Part shown: piece by piece, positions 13,931-27,232 of the stretch
How positions within the stretch are numbered: position 1 is the first letter of the stretch
How the letters are laid out: the number at the start of each line of letters is the position of its first letter
Notes under the pieces: generated by a model
Database searches by the model: none
What the model was told of the DNA's origin: nothing
What the model saw: the letters and a program-made list of their open reading frames with translations, nothing else
Source: Candidatus Dormiibacterota bacterium
GTDB lineage: Bacteria > Patescibacteriota > Saccharimonadia > UBA4664 > DATLOE01
Assembly: GCA_035536395.1 (NCBI GenBank)
Contig: DATLOE010000015.1
Location: forward strand, 1-39,755
Length of the DNA stretch: 39,755 nucleotides
Direction: 5' to 3'
Program-made: the position numbers and the translations under genes

Positions 13931-16096
13931 ATGGCAAGTACGCAGCCCAATGAAGCCGGCCTAGCCAGACGCGTTCGCTGGTATGTTGCTATTCGTTGGT
14001 TCTTTGTAGCCTCCATTGCCGTACCAAGCGTTCTGGCGCGATATATCAGCCAGGGGCTTTCACAAGATGTTATTAACGTTTTTACCTCCGGTCTAATCGC
14101 AGCTATTTATAACGTCTTTTTCTGGCTACTTACAAAACGTCTGAACCAGAGGGCCGTCTGGCTGAAAGCCTTAAGTATCTTCCAATTAGCTGCCGACACC
14201 CTGCTTATCACCTTTTTGGTATTCGAGTTTGGCGGGGTCGAAAGCCGCAGTCCGATACTGTTTGCCATACCCATACTGATTACGGGTGTGCTGTTCGGAC
14301 GGTTTGCTATTTACCTCGTAGCCATCATCAGCGCCCTGCTGTATAACGGCGTATTGCTGGCCGAAATAACCGGACTGATTCAATCGCCCGTTATCAATAA
14401 TGCCGCGCTGCACAGCAATATGCCTTATACCTTCAGCTCGATGGTCTTCTTTGCATCGACCTTCCTTGTAATTGCCGCCATTGCCGATTTTATGACCGCC
14501 TTACTGAAAGAAAATGAGGCCGTCACCGAAGAGCAAGCCGAATTCTTAAGAAACGCTGAGAAGATTGCCCGGGTCGGCAGCTGGGAGTGGGAAGTAGTTA
14601 CCGCCGAGGTAGACTGGTCAGACGAGCTGTATGAAATTTACGGGGTTGATCGCCAGACATACCGGCCCGGCATCAGGTCTCTGCTGGATCTCGTCCACCC
14701 GGATGATGTGGAAAGAGTTGATGCCGCAATTAGAAAATCGGCAGAGAAAGCCTTCAGCCTGGAGTACCGAATAGTGCGTCCAGACGGCCAAATACGGGTA
14801 GTGCATAGCGAGGGCAGAGCCACCACCAATCCCCGCGGCAACCTCTCCGTCATCGGCACCAGCCAAGACATTACCGAGCGCATTAAGGCCGAGCAGGAAG
14901 CCCTACGCCGGGCTGAGCAGCTAGAAATGCTCAATGCTACTCTGGAGGATACCAAAAAGGCTGTTCTAAGCGCCTTGGAAGACTTGAAGAAAGAAAAGGC
15001 CCTGGCCGAAGAAGAGCGCGCTAAAGACGAGGCTATTCTGGCTAGTATTGGCGACGGGGTGTTTGCTATTGATACTAACCGCAAGATCATACTCTTCAAC
15101 CAAGCTGCTGCTGACATAACCGGCTATCAATCTAAGCAGGTGATGGGTGAAAATTATCATAAGGTGTTTATGTTCCAAACAGAAAAGGAGGGCCAGCCAA
15201 GTTATGAGTTCGTCGAAAATGCCTTGAAGGGGCGGCCAGTTAATACCGAAGCTCATTTGCTACTTGCAACTAAGGGCGGGCTCTTAGTGCCAATCGCTTA
15301 CTCGGCAGCGCCAATCAAAGATACTGGTGGTAAAACGCTGGGTGCGATTGTGGTCATTAAAGACATAACGGTTGAGCGAGGCCTCGAGCAGGCTAAAGAT
15401 GATTTTCTAAACCTCGCCGCCCACCAGCTAAGAACCCCCGCCAGTGGTGTTAAGGCCTACAGTTATATGCTGCGAGATGGTTACGCCGGTAAGCTCACCC
15501 CTAAGCAGCTCGAGTTTTTAAAGCAGCTGAACGATAGTAATGAGCGACAGCTGAAAATCATTAACGATATGCTAAGTGTGGCCAGAATCCAATCCGGTAA
15601 GTTCGAGCCGGTGCTCGCCTCTTGTAATACCAGTAAATTAATTCAAGACATAGTAGAAGAACAGAAACAGGCTATTGCCGGCCGCAGGCAAAAAGTAACA
15701 ATGCGCTTGGCCACAAACCTGCCTGAAATAAATATTGACCCCGACAAAATCAGGATGGTAATAGAGAATTTGGTTTCGAATGCCAGTAAATACACCCCCG
15801 ATGGTGGGCAAATCAACATTGATGGACGACTTAAAGGCGATTACTTTGAAATCAGCGTGGCGGACACCGGAGTCGGCATACCAAAGAAGGATATGTCTAG
15901 TCTGTTTCAGCGCTTTGGCCGCCTAGATAACCCTCTAAGCACTAAAGCCGGCGGAACCGGCCTAGGCCTTTACATAGCCAAAACAATTATAGATATGCAC
16001 CATGGGGAAATCACCGTTAAATCAGAGGTGGGTAAAGGTTCTGTCTTCACCATCAGTCTGCCTATTGGGTTGCAGGAGGCAAAGCATAAAGGTTAA
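13931..16096 (+). CDS. Hybrid-free sensor histidine kinase: 6TM, two PAS domains, HisKA, HATPase
   Basis: A 721-residue protein. Residues 1-195 contain about six membrane helices with short loops, a membrane-embedded sensor. PAS domain 1 (about 207-320, with VGSWEWEV and HPDDVERV) is of the PAS_3 type. A charged coiled coil links to PAS domain 2 (about 365-485, IGDGVFAIDTN). HisKA has His498 in AAHQLRTP, and HATPase shows NLVSNASKYT, DTGVGIP, LFQRFGR and GTGLGLY. All are intact. The gene is followed after 20 nt by a single-domain receiver, a natural partner. The signal is unknown; PAS domains may bind a cofactor, but no diagnostic residue is evident. Confidence 0.92.
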   Translation: MASTQPNEAGLARRVRWYVAIRWFFVASIAVPSVLARYISQGLSQDVINVFTSGLIAAIYNVFFWLLTKRLNQRAVWLKALSIFQLAADTLLITFLVFEFGGVESRSPILFAIPILITGVLFGRFAIYLVAIISALLYNGVLLAEITGLIQSPVINNAALHSNMPYTFSSMVFFASTFLVIAAIADFMTALLKENEAVTEEQAEFLRNAEKIARVGSWEWEVVTAEVDWSDELYEIYGVDRQTYRPGIRSLLDLVHPDDVERVDAAIRKSAEKAFSLEYRIVRPDGQIRVVHSEGRATTNPRGNLSVIGTSQDITERIKAEQEALRRAEQLEMLNATLEDTKKAVLSALEDLKKEKALAEEERAKDEAILASIGDGVFAIDTNRKIILFNQAAADITGYQSKQVMGENYHKVFMFQTEKEGQPSYEFVENALKGRPVNTEAHLLLATKGGLLVPIAYSAAPIKDTGGKTLGAIVVIKDITVERGLEQAKDDFLNLAAHQLRTPASGVKAYSYMLRDGYAGKLTPKQLEFLKQLNDSNERQLKIINDMLSVARIQSGKFEPVLASCNTSKLIQDIVEEQKQAIAGRRQKVTMRLATNLPEINIDPDKIRMVIENLVSNASKYTPDGGQINIDGRLKGDYFEISVADTGVGIPKKDMSSLFQRFGRLDNPLSTKAGGTGLGLYIAKTIIDMHHGEITVKSEVGKGSVFTISLPIGLQEAKHKG

Positions 16097-16116
16097 AATA
16101 TTTGGAAGGAGAAACC

Positions 16117-16503
16117 ATGGCCCGAATACTGATAGTAGAAGATGACTCGATTTTGCAGAGTGCTTACAATACCGTTTTGAGCATGGAGGGCTACCAGGTA
16201 GATGTAGCTTCTGACGGCCTGGAGGGATTGAGGGTAGCCAAAGAAAAGAAGCCGGATCTAATATTACTGGATATGCTAATGCCTAACCTCGGCGGATTAG
16301 AATTCCTGAAGGTTTTTGAAGCCAAAAACCACCCTGAAACCAAGATTATTGTCTTTAGTAATATCGTTTCACCCGAGGATGTTAGACAGGCAATGGATCT
16401 AGGGGCAGTCAAATATATGACCAAAGCCAACTTTACCCCCAAAGAGATGGTTGCGACCATCAAAGAGCTTCTGGGGCAACAATCAACAGGGCAGGCTACT
16501 TAG
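16117..16503 (+). CDS. Single-domain response regulator (CheY-like receiver)
   Basis: A 128-residue receiver with no output domain. The acidic pocket is EDD at 8-10, the phosphoacceptor is Asp52 in LILLDMLMP, and the switch residues are Ser in VFSNIV and Lys in YMTKANFTP. The start at 16117 is fixed by GGAAGGAG 5 nt upstream; an in-frame ATG five codons earlier has no such site. It is cotranscribed with the kinase ending 20 nt before. With no DNA-binding domain it should signal through protein contacts. Its last 8 nt overlap the end of the opposite-strand receiver gene. Confidence 0.92.
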   Translation: MARILIVEDDSILQSAYNTVLSMEGYQVDVASDGLEGLRVAKEKKPDLILLDMLMPNLGGLEFLKVFEAKNHPETKIIVFSNIVSPEDVRQAMDLGAVKYMTKANFTPKEMVATIKELLGQQSTGQAT

Positions 16504-16867
16504 CAGCTAGCTCGGCGGTTACTAAGTCCACTAGTTTTTGAGGTGTGTAATCTGACTTTACCAGGTATTTTCCTGCGCCCAGCTTTTTGGTTTCTTCAAT
16601 ACTGGTGGCCGTGGTACTGTTACTTAAAACGACCACCTTCACCTCTGGATGCTTGTTTATCACATCGTAGCGGCGTAAAAACTCATTGCCGTCCATTTTC
16701 GGCATAAGGATATCCAGTATTATTAGATCGGGCTTCACCTCTTCTGCTTTCAGCAGCCCTTGCTGCCCGTCTTCCGCCTCTGATACTTCATAGCCGGCAT
16801 GGGTAAAGATCGTCGTATACGCCGTCCGAATTACTTCGTCATCTTCTATTATTAATATTTTAGCCAT
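16496..16867 (-). CDS. Single-domain response regulator (CheY-like receiver)
   Basis: A 123-residue receiver, paralogous to the one facing it. The acidic pocket is EDDE at 8-11, the phosphoacceptor is Asp52 in LIILDILMPKMDG, and the switch residues are Ser in VLSNST and Lys in YLVKSDYTP. The start at 16867 is given by AAAGGAGGG. It is the last gene of the four-gene operon that starts at 19205, 11 nt after the soluble kinase. No output domain is present. Confidence 0.92.
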   Translation of the reverse strand: MAKILIIEDDEVIRTAYTTIFTHAGYEVSEAEDGQQGLLKAEEVKPDLIILDILMPKMDGNEFLRRYDVINKHPEVKVVVLSNSTTATSIEETKKLGAGKYLVKSDYTPQKLVDLVTAELAAK

Positions 16868-16878
16868 TAAACCCTCCT

Positions 16879-18033
16879 TTAATCTTCTAAGGCCTTGCCG
16901 TCTTTGGCAGTCAATTCTGCCGTAAGCGGCAGAGCAAACCAAAAGGTAGTGCCTTCGTTTTCCACGCTCTTAAACCAAATCGTTCCCGCAAGAGCCTCAA
17001 CGATTGATTTGACTAGGTACATTCCCAGTCCTGTACCCTCCTCGACCTTTTGCACGATGTTCGCCCCGCGGTAAAATTTGCTGAACATCCGGCCTTGCTC
17101 GGCCGCCGGAATGCCATAACCGTTGTCGCTGATGGCTGTTACTATTTTATCGCCTTCTGCCGTAACAGTCACCTTAATCTGCCCTTTCTCAGGAGTATAT
17201 TTAATAGCGTTAGAAAGCAAATTGGCCAGTACCTCCTTAACTAGTAATGGATCGGTAACAATCTGCGGTAAGGAGGTTGGCTCAAATATTAGCTGCTGCC
17301 CCTTTTTTTGCAGCTTCGGTGTGAGCTCATGGATAATCTCTTGGTAAAGCTGTGGTATGTCGGCCTTGGCCGGGGTAATCTGCAGCCGGCCCGATTCTAT
17401 GCGCGAGATATTTAAAAGTGTATTCACCAGCTGGGTCATACGGCTGACAGTCGTTATGATGGTGTCGGTAAACTTCCGCTGCTCGGGGCTTAACTGCCCA
17501 CCGTAGCCATCCACCAGCATATGAGAGTACATCATAATGGCCGATAGCGGTGTGCGCAGCTGGTGGGAGGCAAGGGATATAAATTCGCTCTTCATTCTGT
17601 CCACCTCTACCTCTTTGGCAATATCGCGAAACACTTCAATCGCCCCTACCGGTTTGTTCTCCAACAGCACCGGTGATACCGTAACGGCTACCGGCAGAAT
17701 AGTGCCGTCTTTTTTCTTGTAATAGCATCTTTGCGACACCGGCTGCCCAGCAAGGAAGGCTTTTGTAATTGGCCTGTCAATCTGGCTGATTGGCTTACCG
17801 GCCTCATCCACAGCCAGTATGGTCTTGGGGTACCAGGCACCTATTATTTCCTCTGCCCTATAGCCCAGCAGGCTCAGGGCTATATCGTTAGCCCGGTTGA
17901 TCCTGCCCTGCTCGTCGGTAGCTATTGCCCCATCGCCAATGCTGATAAACAACGCATCGGCCTTGGCCCGCTCCTGCTCTATCTCACGGGCTCCGGCTTC
18001 AAGCTCTTTTATTAGCTTGTCGAGATCGTACAC
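16879..18033 (-). CDS. Soluble PAS histidine kinase
   Basis: A 384-residue kinase without any membrane segment. It has an N-terminal helix (about 1-24), a PAS domain (about 25-140, IGDGAIATDEQG to AIEVFRD), HisKA with His157 in ASHQLRTPLS, and HATPase with NLLSNAIKYT, DNGYGIP, FSKFYRG and GTGLGMY. The GTG start follows the stop of the 85-aa gene with no gap, so translation is coupled. Since it has no sensor in the membrane, the 7TM protein two genes upstream is the obvious candidate to bring it a signal. The receiver 11 nt downstream is its likely target. Confidence 0.92.
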   Translation of the reverse strand: MYDLDKLIKELEAGAREIEQERAKADALFISIGDGAIATDEQGRINRANDIALSLLGYRAEEIIGAWYPKTILAVDEAGKPISQIDRPITKAFLAGQPVSQRCYYKKKDGTILPVAVTVSPVLLENKPVGAIEVFRDIAKEVEVDRMKSEFISLASHQLRTPLSAIMMYSHMLVDGYGGQLSPEQRKFTDTIITTVSRMTQLVNTLLNISRIESGRLQITPAKADIPQLYQEIIHELTPKLQKKGQQLIFEPTSLPQIVTDPLLVKEVLANLLSNAIKYTPEKGQIKVTVTAEGDKIVTAISDNGYGIPAAEQGRMFSKFYRGANIVQKVEEGTGLGMYLVKSIVEALAGTIWFKSVENEGTTFWFALPLTAELTAKDGKALED

Positions 18034-18291
18034 CTAGGCAGTCTTTTTAGATAACGCCAATAAGCTTTGGGTGAAAGCTTCGACTGTTTTCCCATCTTCG
18101 GTTAATAGCGCGACCGCGATCTTGACCCAATCTACCAGCTTCGCCAGATCTTCTGGGGTCAACTCTTCGGGTTTTTTATTTAGATGGGTCTCTATCTGGC
18201 GTGCAATAAACCTCTCTGAGGCTGGGCCAAGATAGCTCTGTGTTACTTCTACGACCTGCGAGTATAAATTATTCGGCGCTGTAGCTACCAT
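18034..18291 (-). CDS. 85-aa helical protein between 7TM protein and kinase, unknown
   Basis: A small soluble protein that I do not recognise. After a short N-terminus it looks all-helical: VVEVTQSYLGPASERFIARQ, then THLNKKPEELTPEDLAKLVD, then VKIAVALLTEDGKTVEAF. Its ATG overlaps the 7TM gene stop as TAATG, with a near-perfect GGAGG just upstream, and its stop touches the GTG of the kinase gene. Being locked between membrane protein and kinase, it may be an adaptor that links the two, comparable in position to CheW-like linkers but not in sequence. That role is inferred only from gene order. Confidence 0.8.
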   Translation of the reverse strand: MVATAPNNLYSQVVEVTQSYLGPASERFIARQIETHLNKKPEELTPEDLAKLVDWVKIAVALLTEDGKTVEAFTQSLLALSKKTA

Positions 18292-19205
18292 TAGACCTCC
18301 TCAATCTTTTTTAGCTGTTTGGCCCCTAAGGCTATTAAAACATATCCGACCGCTATTACCATCAGCAGTATGTATATGATTATCAATAGCGGCGCCAGGC
18401 TTAACTTCTGCAATGCTACACTGACGGCCCCCAGGAACTGTAAGAATATAGAAGATACCACCACCGCTGTTAAGCCAGCGGCCAAGTAGCCAAGCATTTT
18501 CTTATACAGGATGCCCTGAATATTTTTACGGTAAAAGTTGATGTCGAAGGCTGCCTGAAGGCCCTTGTACCAAACATACAGGTAGGGGGTGATAATTGTA
18601 GTAAGAATTAGCCAATCCGGGAGGAAATAGGTAGCCCGGCCGCTGGCTATGACCGGCACTGTGCGGTTCGGGTTGGTAAGAGTAGCGTAAATATATGCAG
18701 CCGCGAGTAGCAGAAATACGACGATTGCTACCAGGGATCGGCTGGGTAGAGCCTTCTTGGTAACTTTTGCCAAATCGGCCGCGCCCTTGGCTATCAGGGT
18801 AAAGCCGACAGCGGCAATCAGCAGGCTAATATAGTTATTGGTAATTACGACTTGCGGCAGAAGGTCATGGTTCTGCCGGCCTAGGTAGTTTAGGGTGCTG
18901 GATAGTATGGAGGAAACGGGTAAGCCTATAGCCAGCACCATAATACCGGAAGATAATCGGACGAACGCCTTTCCGTCGGGAGATGATTTGATTAGCTCAG
19001 CGTAGGATTTAAATTTAGAAAAACCGTAAAAGGCCGCAAACCAGATGCCTATTACCGGTACGGCGATGCTCAGGCTAAGCAGGCGGGACTGCAAAACAGA
19101 CAAATTGTATTTGGCTAGAGAGACCGGATCGGGCGGAATACTAAAGGTAATACCAAGGTAAATGATAACCAGGAGAGCCAAGAGGGCCATATACTTTTTT
19201 GTCAT
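18291..19205 (-). CDS. 7TM-like membrane protein, putative split sensor of the two-component operon
   Basis: A 304-residue protein with seven or eight membrane helices. No family is recognised. It is clearly paralogous to the protein at 24678-25610: shared landmarks are WFAA-Y, LSSG or LLSG, a TNPNR or INPQR loop, FLPD or YLPD, and the C-terminal (K/R)-IEE-(V/I) end. There is no lysine in the last helix, so it is not a retinal-binding rhodopsin. It is the first gene of a tightly coupled operon with an 85-aa protein, a soluble PAS kinase and a receiver, so a sensor role is proposed. AAAGGCAG lies 4 nt before the ATG. Confidence 0.8.
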   Translation of the reverse strand: MTKKYMALLALLVIIYLGITFSIPPDPVSLAKYNLSVLQSRLLSLSIAVPVIGIWFAAFYGFSKFKSYAELIKSSPDGKAFVRLSSGIMVLAIGLPVSSILSSTLNYLGRQNHDLLPQVVITNNYISLLIAAVGFTLIAKGAADLAKVTKKALPSRSLVAIVVFLLLAAAYIYATLTNPNRTVPVIASGRATYFLPDWLILTTIITPYLYVWYKGLQAAFDINFYRKNIQGILYKKMLGYLAAGLTAVVVSSIFLQFLGAVSVALQKLSLAPLLIIIYILLMVIAVGYVLIALGAKQLKKIEEV

Positions 19206-19304: not shown

Positions 19305-20033
19305 ATGTTTACGGTTGAACTCGGTGTGCCGTTTAATTCAGTGGCTTGGGTGGTCGGTGCGGCGGGCACCTTACTGCTGAGCTATAAAAGCTATAAGAAC
19401 TGGCAAAAAAACCAGGATCCGTTTTCCAAGTATTTGGCCTGGTTTGGTTTGGTAACCGGTATCGGTCTAGCTTTTCTGGGTATACCCCCTATTTTGAGTA
19501 GTGACGAAACCTGGCTGCGAATTCCCTACTTAATAGGCCAGGACCTAGTGTTTTTAGGATTCTTGGTTCAGGCTCGCATAGTCTGGTGGCTGTATCTGCA
19601 TAATAAAATGTCTTTTGGGGTACCCGCGCTAGTTACCGCCATTCCCCTCCTTTACGCCTCCTCTCAAGCCTGGATGGGCTCTATGGTAGACCGCCAGCCC
19701 GATTTCGTTACCTTCGTGCAACCCCGGGAAGTCACCGTCATACTGGGAGCCACCCTGCTAGTACTGTTTGTGGCTACCGGCCTGTTCTTCTTGTGGCAGG
19801 TCCGGCGGCAGGCTAGCGCGCTTGCCAAAATTAAGGCTAGCGTCATCGGTATGACATACGTCATTATCGGGCTCTCAGTTGGCGGCCATAACTTGTTTTA
19901 CGGTTATGGCACTACGCCGCTCTCTACTGTCTTTAATCTGGGATTCTTCATCGCGCTGATAATCAGCCTGCTAATGCCGAAAGTCACACAGCAAGAGCAT
20001 CAGGTACAGCTTAAGTCCGGTCAGCCAAGTTAG
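19305..20033 (+). CDS. 7TM-like membrane protein (paralogue of 30032-30760)
   Basis: A 242-residue protein with seven predicted helices and short loops, not recognised. It has the same length as the protein at 30032-30760 and shares with it NS-AWV-G, YKS---WQK--DPF, AWFGL, GIPP-L, VWWL-LHN and ATGLFFL-QV-RQ. These conserved positions make one family. The C-terminal tail is short and polar, with no output domain. A -10 (TATAAT, 19293-19298) lies 6 nt before the ATG and there is no ribosome site, so the mRNA is probably leaderless. Its end overlaps that of the convergent MASE1 gene by 4 nt. A stand-alone membrane sensor role is possible. Confidence 0.8.
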   Translation: MFTVELGVPFNSVAWVVGAAGTLLLSYKSYKNWQKNQDPFSKYLAWFGLVTGIGLAFLGIPPILSSDETWLRIPYLIGQDLVFLGFLVQARIVWWLYLHNKMSFGVPALVTAIPLLYASSQAWMGSMVDRQPDFVTFVQPREVTVILGATLLVLFVATGLFFLWQVRRQASALAKIKASVIGMTYVIIGLSVGGHNLFYGYGTTPLSTVFNLGFFIALIISLLMPKVTQQEHQVQLKSGQPS

Positions 20034-21058
20034 CTACCAGTAATAATCCTATGATTGTTCTCTGATTCTGCCTTGCTAAGCTGCTCGTCTGAATCGTCTA
20101 AAATCTTTTCTAAAATGTTTGTTGCGCGCCGGTTGGATTCCTTTAGCTCCTCTGCCTGGAGTTTAAGAATTTTCTCCACTCGCTGTCTGTGGTAGACCGC
20201 AACCGCCATCAGCAGGCTAGTGGTGGAAACTACCAAAAGGTAGGTTTGAAGCAAGATCAAGTCACTCTCTGTTGAGCCCGAGCCCGCAAATGGCCCTAAA
20301 CCGTTAATGGTCCCCCATACTGCTGTAGTGGCGGCAGTAATTGTGGCAGTTACGGCACCGATCTGAGCGAACCTAAGCACTGCCCAAATCATAAAGGGGA
20401 ATAACACATAGGGCATAGGAAAAATCGAGTCGGGCGGCTGGGCAAATATCAGCGTGGCTACGACCAGTATCGAGGCAAACACCATACCGGCTTCCACTAG
20501 CCGGCCTTGAATCGAACTTCTCAGACCCTTATGTAAATATACAAGCAGTAAGGGGGTAATGATCACAGCGCCCATCATATCGCCGACCCACCAGGTCAGC
20601 CAGGTTGCCGAAAACGCACCAGGCGAGACCAAGCCACCGGATATCAAACTAGCAGTGCCTATTGTGGCAGCAATACTGGTGCTCACCATGCCGGCCAGAA
20701 CAACCAGACCTAACGCATCCCTTACCCGCGTGAGCGCATTATCAAAACCCACTACTCGTCTCAGTAAGTAAGCTCCAACTACAGCTTCGAGCGTGTTGCC
20801 AATCGCAATACCGGCAGCTACGGCAGCCGGTACGTTAGTCAGCATATTAGCCACAAACGCGCCCGCAAATATTGCCGGCCAGTACTTGTACCCCATAAGT
20901 AAGAGAGCCGCCAAGGCGATTCCTGTGGGCGGCCAGACGGTACTGACTTGCTCAACAGAAAAGGCCAAAGACAAACCGAATTTGGCAGCCGCTAAGTACA
21001 CCAATGCCAGGGCAGCGATTTTAGCTAGGTAAAGTGAATTTTCCCTACTTAGCTTCAT
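20030..21058 (-). CDS. Stand-alone MASE1-type membrane sensor protein
   Basis: A 342-residue protein. Residues 1-285 show the MASE1 integral membrane sensor pattern: STVWPPTGIALAALLLMGY, FAGAFVANM, GNTLEAVVGAYLLRR, and TWWVGDMMGAVIITPLLL. About eight helices are predicted. It then ends in a charged helix of about 55 residues (HRQRVEKILKLQAEELKESN) with no kinase, GGDEF or other output. MASE1 is normally fused to such outputs, so this is a detached sensor with a possible coiled-coil handle. The HK at 21183 starts divergently 124 nt away. TACAAT lies 6 nt before the ATG (leaderless type). Confidence 0.85.
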   Translation of the reverse strand: MKLSRENSLYLAKIAALALVYLAAAKFGLSLAFSVEQVSTVWPPTGIALAALLLMGYKYWPAIFAGAFVANMLTNVPAAVAAGIAIGNTLEAVVGAYLLRRVVGFDNALTRVRDALGLVVLAGMVSTSIAATIGTASLISGGLVSPGAFSATWLTWWVGDMMGAVIITPLLLVYLHKGLRSSIQGRLVEAGMVFASILVVATLIFAQPPDSIFPMPYVLFPFMIWAVLRFAQIGAVTATITAATTAVWGTINGLGPFAGSGSTESDLILLQTYLLVVSTTSLLMAVAVYHRQRVEKILKLQAEELKESNRRATNILEKILDDSDEQLSKAESENNHRIITGS

Positions 21059-23305: not shown

Positions 23306-23887
23306 TTATGCAGGCTCCGGTAAAATGACGCTGGTATGTAAGTGCCCGACTTCACGATGGGAATGATTCGCGCAATCAAAGTAGTGCATAGGGTAAGCGC
23401 AGAACAAGGTAAACGAGTATTCATCGGCAATCTCGTTCCATAATCTTTCCAATGATATAGCAGCATTTTGATTACCCTCTGCCCATAGAAGGGCCACCAT
23501 TTCCCCGAAAGCCCTTATTTCTTTCCCTGTTTCGGCAACTTCTCTGAGCAGCCCCCCAATTACTTCCTTAAAAAGTGCTCTGTTTGGCCTGCCATTTACA
23601 ATAAATTTCGATAAGGTTTCCCCTGCATCCAGGCAGATATAGTGCCGGGTGCGTTCAAGTTTTTCCACATCAAAACCCTCCTCTGCTAGAGCAGTATTGA
23701 GATCCTCGATGTGCTGTTGGGTGGCAATGATTATAGAGACATTGTTATTTTTAAGTCCGGCGCCTACGAAACTTTTGAGATTTTTTATCAGTAAATCATC
23801 CTTATTATAAAACTGCACAAAGTGCTCTTGTTCATAGATCACACCGAGAGAACTGGATTTTCTTGCATTACTCATATTATCTGCCAC
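23306..23887 (-). CDS. MEDS-domain (DcmR-type sensory) protein
   Basis: A 193-residue single-domain protein from GTG at 23887. The domain is recognised by HFVQFYNKDDLLIKNLKSFV near the start, then IIIATQQHIEDL, CLDAGETL, AFGEMVALLWAEGN, LERLWNEI and FTLFCAYPMHYF. This is the MEDS (methanogen/methylotroph DcmR sensory) pattern, often found next to or fused with kinases and seen as an input domain for an unknown small molecule. Here it has no fused output, in keeping with the detached sensors around it. The C-terminus ends with HSHREVGHLHTSVI, rich in histidine. Confidence 0.85.
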   Translation of the reverse strand: MADNMSNARKSSSLGVIYEQEHFVQFYNKDDLLIKNLKSFVGAGLKNNNVSIIIATQQHIEDLNTALAEEGFDVEKLERTRHYICLDAGETLSKFIVNGRPNRALFKEVIGGLLREVAETGKEIRAFGEMVALLWAEGNQNAAISLERLWNEIADEYSFTLFCAYPMHYFDCANHSHREVGHLHTSVILPEPA

Positions 23888-24677: not shown

Positions 24678-25610
24678 CTAGATTTCCTCTATTCTGCTTA
24701 AACGTTTAGTGGCTTTGGCCAAAAGCATAAACCCTAATGCGAGCATTCCTGCAAAAGTATAAATCGTTAAAACCAAGGGTACTGCGCCTAACTGAAAGAG
24801 CTTATTTGTCCCCACTGATACTACAGCTTGTAATGCGGCCGATCCTATAATTACAGCTGCCAAACCCCCACTAAAGGCAGGTAGCGCGCTTTTATATATT
24901 AGGCCGGGTGCTTGATCTTTAAAATTATTTATTTTGACAATCGCTAATATACCTAAAATCCAAGAGGTAAAGGCCGGCAGCACAATAGTGGCAATTATCA
25001 AGGGGTCAGGCAGGTAGAAGGTGGCGGGTACTCCTGGGGCCGGCGAGACATTGCGTTGGGGGTTGATGAAAAGCAACCATAAGTACAGTACCGCGAATAA
25101 GGCCAGTGCTAAAAACCACCAAACGCTCTGTATTCGGAAGCGGTTTTCAACCTTGACAGCTTCTAGGATCTTACTCGTGCCTCTATAAATTAAATAAAAT
25201 CCAACGAGCGGCGGTATTATCATTAGATAATTAAAGAAATAAGTCAGTACCTGAATTAAATCTGGGTTGCTAGTAAATAATGCCCGTACTGCCGTCATTG
25301 GTGGCCAGGCCAGCATCCCCAGAGTAATAACTAAAAGACCTGATAATAATTGACTAAACCCTCTGCTCTCAGGTGACTTGTGGATTAACTTACAGTATCT
25401 GGCCAGGTGCATAACTGCATAGGCCGCCGCAAACCAGCTTATTATGTATCCGAAAGACAAGACAAAGCGAACAAATTTAATTTTTGTAGTGTATATTCGT
25501 AGCTCTTCAGAGGTGGTAGCTATTGGTGTTTGCCAAACAAAACCAAGATAAACAATCGCAGCAAACACTGCTAATACATACAGAAATAAGTAGTTCTTAA
25601 GTATATTCAT
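24678..25610 (-). CDS. 7TM-like membrane protein (paralogue of 18291-19205)
   Basis: A 310-residue protein from the ATG at 25610, chosen because it aligns with the start of the 304-aa paralogue (both begin just before a helix ending in VIYLG or IVYLG). A frame 33 codons longer is open upstream but lacks support. Seven or eight helices, shared landmarks WFAA-Y, a NP-R loop, YLPDPLI and the end SRIEEI. Unlike its paralogue it has no kinase beside it: it stands between an unknown gene and an SPW protein. It may be a receptor acting on a kinase encoded elsewhere, or a membrane enzyme of unknown kind. Confidence 0.78.
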   Translation of the reverse strand: MNILKNYLFLYVLAVFAAIVYLGFVWQTPIATTSEELRIYTTKIKFVRFVLSFGYIISWFAAAYAVMHLARYCKLIHKSPESRGFSQLLSGLLVITLGMLAWPPMTAVRALFTSNPDLIQVLTYFFNYLMIIPPLVGFYLIYRGTSKILEAVKVENRFRIQSVWWFLALALFAVLYLWLLFINPQRNVSPAPGVPATFYLPDPLIIATIVLPAFTSWILGILAIVKINNFKDQAPGLIYKSALPAFSGGLAAVIIGSAALQAVVSVGTNKLFQLGAVPLVLTIYTFAGMLALGFMLLAKATKRLSRIEEI

Positions 25611-26281: not shown

Positions 26282-27232
26282 ATGAAATCAAGTTTTAAGT
26301 ATGCTCTGGTGATAATCGGTCTGTCGGCCCTGCCGCTCCTGGTGGCTTCTGCCCTAGGCATTCTTTTGGCACGAGACGAAATCACTCGCCAAGCTACAAA
26401 TAGCCTGGAGTCATTGGCCTCATCCCAAAAAGCACGGGTCGAACAAGCTATTAACCAATTCAAGATCATTCATGACGGCATTGCCAGCCGCACTCAGCTG
26501 CGAAACAGCCTAGAGGAATTTAACCGCACGCATTCTCCTGAAGCAGCTAGCTCTATAAACCGGATTCTCACCGATGCCAAGACACCATTTACTGACATTA
26601 AGGGGGTGGTTCTCCTTGGTGCGGATGGTACAGCGGTATCTAAGCTGCAAGACGAGACTATTCCATCTGAGCTATACAAATCCCTCTATGCTAAAGGTAA
26701 AACCTCTCCTGCTCTAGTAGCTAGCGGCGAATCTGACAATCAGGTAATCTTGCATGCCGCGCCTGTTAAGCGGGGAGAAACTCTGCTGGGCGTATTGGTA
26801 TTGTCGTTCTTACCAGATCATTTAAGGTCTATCACGCATACCGATATTGGACTTGGACGTACTGGGGAAACTATCCTGGGTTATCGAGATGGAGATGGCG
26901 CCATCCTCTTCCCAACTAGACTGCAAACCACAAAAGAGACCATCCGTATTACTAAGGAGCAGAATACAACTACCATCCAGGCACTAGAAAAGAAAGAGGT
27001 GACACTGAGCTCCGCAAAAGACTATCGCGGGCAAGATGTTTTAGCGGTTACGAAATATATTCCTGAAGCCGACTGGGCTATCGTTACTAAAAAAGACCGG
27101 GCTGAAATTTTTGCGCCGGTTTCCACTTTTACTGCAATATATTTCTTCATCTCTATTATGTTACTTACTATGGCAGCTGCGCTTGCCTGGGTTATAGCTC
27201 CATACATCCTTGGCGCTAAAAACCGCTCATAA
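26282..27232 (+). CDS. Stand-alone double-Cache-like sensor protein without output domain
   Basis: A 316-residue protein with TM1 (about 8-30), an external domain of about 250 residues and TM2 (about 282-306), ending 10 residues after TM2. The external part has the layout of kinase Cache sensors, with DIGLGRTGETILGYRDGDGA and DWAIVTKKDRAEIFAPV just before TM2, as in sensor kinases. No HAMP, kinase or chemotaxis domain follows, and the next gene is on the other strand, so this is not a nearby frameshift. An extended -10 (TGTTATAAT) lies 8 nt before the ATG, with GCTTATG next to it. Confidence 0.8.
   Translation: MKSSFKYALVIIGLSALPLLVASALGILLARDEITRQATNSLESLASSQKARVEQAINQFKIIHDGIASRTQLRNSLEEFNRTHSPEAASSINRILTDAKTPFTDIKGVVLLGADGTAVSKLQDETIPSELYKSLYAKGKTSPALVASGESDNQVILHAAPVKRGETLLGVLVLSFLPDHLRSITHTDIGLGRTGETILGYRDGDGAILFPTRLQTTKETIRITKEQNTTTIQALEKKEVTLSSAKDYRGQDVLAVTKYIPEADWAIVTKKDRAEIFAPVSTFTAIYFFISIMLLTMAAALAWVIAPYILGAKNRS

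Follow-up and report, generated by a model that had tools for sequence, protein, structure and literature searches.

A conserved four-gene operon of Saccharibacteria as a probable split membrane-sensing two-component circuit with a STAC-like small protein

The window analyzed here is the whole 39,755-nucleotide stretch of DNA, contig 15 of a genome of 642,558 bases with a completeness of 96.4%. Its minus strand harbors four closely spaced genes, referred to below as the module, which are listed here in their order of transcription together with two further membrane protein genes of the same contig:

18291..19205, minus strand: eight-helix integral membrane protein of 304 residues, the proposed sensor, with no Pfam or NCBIfam family
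18034..18291, minus strand: STAC-like helical protein of 85 residues with a YLGPAxxRF motif, the proposed adaptor from membrane protein to kinase
16879..18033, minus strand: soluble PAS-HisKA-HATPase_c histidine kinase of 384 residues with a GTG start (Pfam and sequence)
16868..16878, minus strand: 11-nucleotide gap between kinase and receiver genes, AGGAGGGTTTA, containing the Shine–Dalgarno sequence of the receiver
16496..16867, minus strand: single-domain response regulator of 123 residues, ATG at 16867 and stop at 16496 (Pfam and sequence)
20030..21058, minus strand: MASE1 membrane protein of 342 residues that has a short coiled tail but neither a kinase nor a cyclase domain
24678..25610, minus strand: lone eight-helix paralogue (29% identity), with no 85-residue gene or kinase gene adjoining

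The membrane protein gene and the 85-residue ORF share one base in a TAATG junction, the TAG stop codon of the 85-residue ORF is followed by the GTG of the kinase with no base between, and all four genes, with the overlap, the zero-nucleotide junction, and the 11-nucleotide gap, were found on the minus strand just as a sequence-only reading of this DNA had placed them. The kinase and receiver form an orthodox two-component pair, with PAS, HisKA, and HATPase_c domains in the former and Response_reg in the latter (Pfam), in agreement with the domain content read earlier. The H, N, G1, and G2 boxes of the kinase are intact, as is the phosphorylation site (acidic pair, phospho-Asp, and Lys) of the receiver, which consists of Response_reg alone with no output or DNA-binding domain (Pfam). 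That the kinase has no membrane segment also held: zero hydrophobic segments were found in its sequence, and none of the module kinases among the relatives has a transmembrane segment. A second kinase–receiver pair (13931-16503, plus strand) is convergent with the module and overlaps its receiver gene by 8 nucleotides; this pair encodes a weak PilS-like 6TM match, two PAS domains, HisKA and HATPase domains, and a single receiver.

The membrane protein was modeled by AF2 from a 50-sequence family alignment with high confidence (pLDDT of 95.7, pTM of 0.92). The model comprises eight long helices (residues 2-22, 37-71, 78-111, 113-148, 158-176, 197-228, 232-260, and 270-303), which revises the earlier count of seven transmembrane segments; seven is also what a hydropathy scan at 19 residues gives, as it misses the sixth helix (197-228). 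Mean Lys plus Arg counts per segment across the family alternate between 1.6, 4.1, 2.4, 3.8, and 3.2 on the inner side and 1.1, 0.9, 0.8, and 0.9 on the outer side, a pattern that fits an eight-helix topology in which the N- and C-termini are both predicted to be cytoplasmic. The C-terminal tail, AKQLKKIEEV, is conserved. No Pfam or NCBIfam family and no PDB sequence matches this protein, and its fold finds no significant match, with a best Foldseek E value of 0.07 and TM-scores below 0.45 among the 50 matches listed. The top Foldseek matches are rhodopsin- or GPCR-like seven-helix proteins, an identity that we rejected at E ≥ 0.07 and TM < 0.45; nor does the protein match SSF (the SLC5 transporter family) or any other Pfam family. 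Database identities for the membrane and 85-residue families in Pfam, NCBIfam, and the PDB were limited to chance-level matches, for example SipA, the ETV6 SAM domain, and DUF4014, and were discarded.

The 85-residue protein likewise has no Pfam, NCBIfam, or significant PDB match, but its features recall those of STAC proteins, for which the archaeal Af1502 is the structural type of the stand-alone form: 60 to 90 residues, an LGPx(x)A motif, and translational coupling to the receptor Af1503, one of a type with no recognizable effector (PMC4834066). The LGPx(x)A motif of this definition is present as LGPAS at residues 21-25; among 41 family sequences G22 and P23 are invariant, L21 and A24 are conserved at 90% or more, and the invariant or near-invariant positions spell Y-LGPA-xxRF-xxRQ. 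Relatives are 77 to 97 residues in length, and the partner, as in the STAC definition, is an output-less membrane protein to which the gene is TAATG-coupled. The AF2 model is all helix (9-37, 46-63, and 67-83; pLDDT of 83.9), and Af1502 itself ranks first among PDB matches by TM-score (5A1Q; TM of 0.56-0.57/0.68, rmsd of 2.9-3.0 Å), a match that at E = 2.6-3.1 is not significant by Foldseek E value. Residues 9-37 form one helix in the model, where Af1502, a four-helix bundle made of two hairpins, has an h1–h2 hairpin at the LGP motif. Profile comparison with STAC domains fused to SLC5, drawn from SLC5-STAC kinases encoded on plasmids (one of which, L176, matches PDB 10ed_A, annotated "histidine kinase", at 2e-60), lent no support, with hhalign probabilities of 0.9% and 0.5%, and for this reason we use the label "STAC-like" rather than STAC. 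BLAST, HMMER, and HHblits are reported to miss Af1502 as well (PMC4834066), so STAC membership survives this failure. Taken together, the 85-residue protein probably acts as STAC does and is a probable relative of it.

To learn whether the gene order is conserved in relatives, a check set beforehand, we counted 51 membrane protein genes in fetched Ca. Saccharibacteria loci. The 85-residue gene lies directly downstream in 41 of the 51, with a gap of −4 to 19 nucleotides, and 31 loci hold complete four-gene modules, which bears out the expected conservation. A soluble PAS kinase gene is found beside 36 of the 41 pairs; the order is membrane protein, 85-residue protein, kinase in 33, with the receiver next in 28 of these, and kinase, membrane protein, 85-residue protein, receiver(s) in three (L077-L079). 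Among the remaining pairs, four have no kinase beside them (L042, L048, L054, and L069) and one is ended by a contig boundary. Across a sample of 393 genomes of class Saccharimonadia/Ca. Saccharibacteria, the membrane family is found in 38, the 85-residue family in 39, and both in 36 (hypergeometric P = 4.9e-45); given this overlap and the adjacency in 41 of 51 loci, the pairing is not a matter of chance. Relatives of the 85-residue gene in the GTDB species collection are labeled Ca. Saccharibacteria in nearly all cases, and a sample of the phylum yielded none from other classes. In a mirror-tree analysis, distance matrices correlate at 0.77 to 0.92 for every gene pair, including a convergent Crp gene (see below); as the latter correlates too, the result is not diagnostic of contacts and shows only that the whole block is coinherited.

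Three genomes (L181-L183) harbor operons of the 85-residue gene and the kinase with no recognizable membrane protein gene, and in two of the three the LGP motif has decayed (LGLEA and LDIGA) while the kinase is kept, so that in these operons the small protein may serve the kinase alone. The 85-residue gene stays with the membrane protein gene where the kinase gene has moved or is missing, and with the kinase gene where the membrane protein gene is missing, as would suit a protein able to bind both partners. Ten membrane protein genes are lone copies, nine of which are in genomes that hold a membrane protein–adaptor–kinase set elsewhere, as are all four kinase-less pairs; the lone paralogues and kinase-less pairs could therefore share that set. 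The tail motif L-x-x-[I/L/F]-E is kept in nine lone copies and lost in L075, which comes from a genome where no 85-residue gene was found. Small as their numbers are, these variants fit an 85-residue protein that contacts the membrane protein through the LGP motif and the tail and uses a different face for the kinase. Near the lone paralogue of the window lies a gene for a further output-less sensor, a dCache protein with two transmembrane segments and no cytoplasmic output domain (26282-27232, plus strand).

More distant relatives of the 85-residue protein occur in Chloroflexota. A genome scan revealed, in a Dehalococcoidia MAG (L159), a 75-residue relative, 35% identical in the alignment and 41% in the best segment, whose gene directly precedes that of a Cache-HAMP protein ending after HAMP with no output domain (Pfam). 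A second such neighborhood, again with an output-less Cache-HAMP protein by sequence, was found in the Chloroflexota sample (L167), and both share the arrangement of Af1502 and Af1503, which lends independent support to the STAC-like assignment. In five other Chloroflexota loci (L168-L172), large soluble proteins carry a helical LGPAA domain, related to the 85-residue protein, ahead of repeats that look TPR-like by eye, a context unrelated to the module; this domain possibly belongs to a wider adaptor family.

Other genes in the neighborhood are candidates for further inputs and for an output. Homologues of the MASE1 protein are found inside the operon, between the 85-residue gene and the kinase gene, in L038 (4623-5735) and L040 (7176-8264), and the MASE1 protein is a possible second input. 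A Crp/Fnr-type gene in a separate operon is convergent, tail to tail, with the module receiver in 21 loci (among them L041, L049, L053, L057-L060, L062, L066, and L067), the two stop codons often overlapping by 11 to 17 nucleotides, and its product is the first candidate for an output partner of the receiver. Genes of cytochrome oxidase and a UbiA-family protein (COX1, COX3, COX4_pro, and UbiA) lie within ≈6 kb in five loci (L040, L043, L044, L063, and L068), a weak hint at respiration. The window also encodes a stand-alone MEDS sensory domain of the DcmR type with no regulator attached (23306-23887, minus strand).

The closest known counterparts are the sensor kinases CbrA, CrbS, and RpuS. 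These share with the module the order of a membrane domain, a small helical STAC segment, PAS (in CbrA), HisKA, and HATPase, with the gene for a partner response regulator nearby. In CbrA, the STAC segment lies between the membrane domain and the PAS-kinase (PMC4834066, PMC13022988), wedged beneath the membrane domain, the motion of which it is proposed to relay (PMC13022988), and such a relay to the kinase has been proposed for CbrA-type kinases (PMC13022988, PMC7096432). Deletion of STAC from Pseudomonas putida CbrA lowers signaling output (PMC7096432), whereas P. fluorescens CbrA or CrbS without STAC gives no visible growth defect (PMC5715377), and the role of the domain is stated as unclear (PMC5715377, PMC13022988). 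These kinases differ from the module in being one polypeptide built on a 13-helix SLC5 transporter, as opposed to four genes with an unrelated eight-helix protein and a receiver-only regulator, and the adaptor sequence profiles do not match; no SLC5 (PF00474) gene was found in the genome of the window. The Archaeoglobus pair Af1503/Af1502, in which Af1502 is a relative of the CbrA domain that joins SLC5 to the kinase (PMC4834066), resembles the module in that an output-less membrane receptor is translationally coupled to a small helical LGPx(x)A protein, but Af1503 is a HAMP receptor, which the membrane partner here is not, and the module operon adds a soluble kinase and a receiver. In view of these two precedents, the earlier statement that no described system has this set of genes is too strong, while its core, a conserved unit of membrane part, small coupler, and soluble PAS kinase, stands. 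The open literature searched, including that on two-component systems in Saccharibacteria, yielded no description of the four-gene set.

Other systems share the division of labor. In the chemoreceptor-CheW-CheA-CheY pathway, a membrane input, a small coupler, a soluble kinase, and a single-domain receiver are separate proteins, and several inputs may share one kinase. The module has the same separate parts, but its membrane and coupling proteins are not homologous to those of chemotaxis, and its kinase is an ordinary PAS-HisKA protein rather than CheA; MCP signal, CheW, CheA (P1/P5), and methyl-accepting domains are absent from the four proteins (Pfam). In UhpC-UhpB and BceAB-BceS, a separate membrane protein senses, while the kinase itself is membrane-bound and a small adaptor is not needed. 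As proposed for the module, the sensor of these systems is a membrane protein other than the kinase; the module differs in having a soluble kinase with a small adaptor in place of the membrane-bound UhpB and BceS (BceAB-BceS is mentioned in PMC11109136).

We favor, with moderate confidence, the reading that the module is a split CbrA-type membrane-sensing circuit in which a new eight-helix family replaces the SLC5 transporter. Such a circuit is usually built as a single membrane-bound kinase. The conservation of the four genes together across dozens of species indicates that the small protein probably links the membrane sensor to the kinase, and the idea of a coupler gains from its resemblance to stand-alone STAC and from the STAC precedent in CbrA. 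The eight-helix protein would be the membrane input, and the 85-residue protein would dock both on the cytoplasmic side of this protein, with the C-terminal tail (L-x-K/R-I-E-E-V) probably part of the docking surface, and on the soluble PAS kinase. Kinase autophosphorylation would then respond to changes in the membrane protein, and the kinase would phosphorylate the single-domain receiver, which would act through another protein. We infer the physical contacts, the direction of signaling, the ligand, and the output.

It is unlikely that the 85-residue protein is instead a dedicated cytosolic kinase regulator, such as an inhibitor acting on the dimerization helix, with the membrane protein only a coregulated target or anchor. 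Loci L181-L183, which keep the 85-residue gene and kinase (and receiver) with no membrane protein gene upstream, are what such a regulator would predict, but the 85-residue gene adjoins a membrane protein gene in 41 of 44 cases, four of them with no kinase beside, and the two remain coupled in the three loci in which the kinase has moved. Moreover, erosion of the LGP motif is seen in two of the three membrane-less operons, and the Chloroflexota relatives adjoin membrane receptors. We give equally little weight to a transport circuit made up of a transporter or membrane enzyme (the membrane protein), its regulatory subunit (the 85-residue protein), and a two-component pair that controls expression of the membrane protein or of neighboring genes. 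In favor of this are the naming of STAC after a link with solute transport (PMC4834066), the existence of lone membrane paralogues, and the cytochrome oxidase genes nearby in five loci; against it, the membrane protein matches no transporter family, and direct control of expression by the receiver would call for a DNA-binding domain, which the receiver lacks.

Least probable, in our view, is a block that is syntenic by history, with no physical coupling of the membrane protein, 85-residue protein, and kinase. Shared history would account for the convergent Crp/Fnr gene, which keeps its place beside the receiver in 21 loci despite belonging to a different operon and shows distances that likewise correlate with those of the module. 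However, the membrane protein and 85-residue genes remain adjacent where gene order varies (L077-L079, with the kinase first; L038 and L040, with a MASE1 insertion), and additional copies of the two are found together at other places in the genome.

A further reading, which we put forward only tentatively, is that Saccharibacteria use a hub in which several output-less sensors (eight-helix paralogues and MASE1 proteins) plug by way of one small LGP adaptor into a shared soluble kinase. If true, labor would be divided much as in chemotaxis but among unrelated parts, around an adaptor fold in common with archaeal and Chloroflexota output-less HAMP receptors. What is new here is the membrane family and the split genes, as a variant of STAC-type signaling. 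Since nature encodes the proposed parts as individual soluble and membrane proteins in one translationally coupled operon, adaptor–receptor and adaptor–kinase binding can each be tested singly, with no large polypeptide to be cut. The analysis also assigns likely signaling functions to two families that have no Pfam or NCBIfam model, in bacteria that have small genomes and are mostly uncultured.
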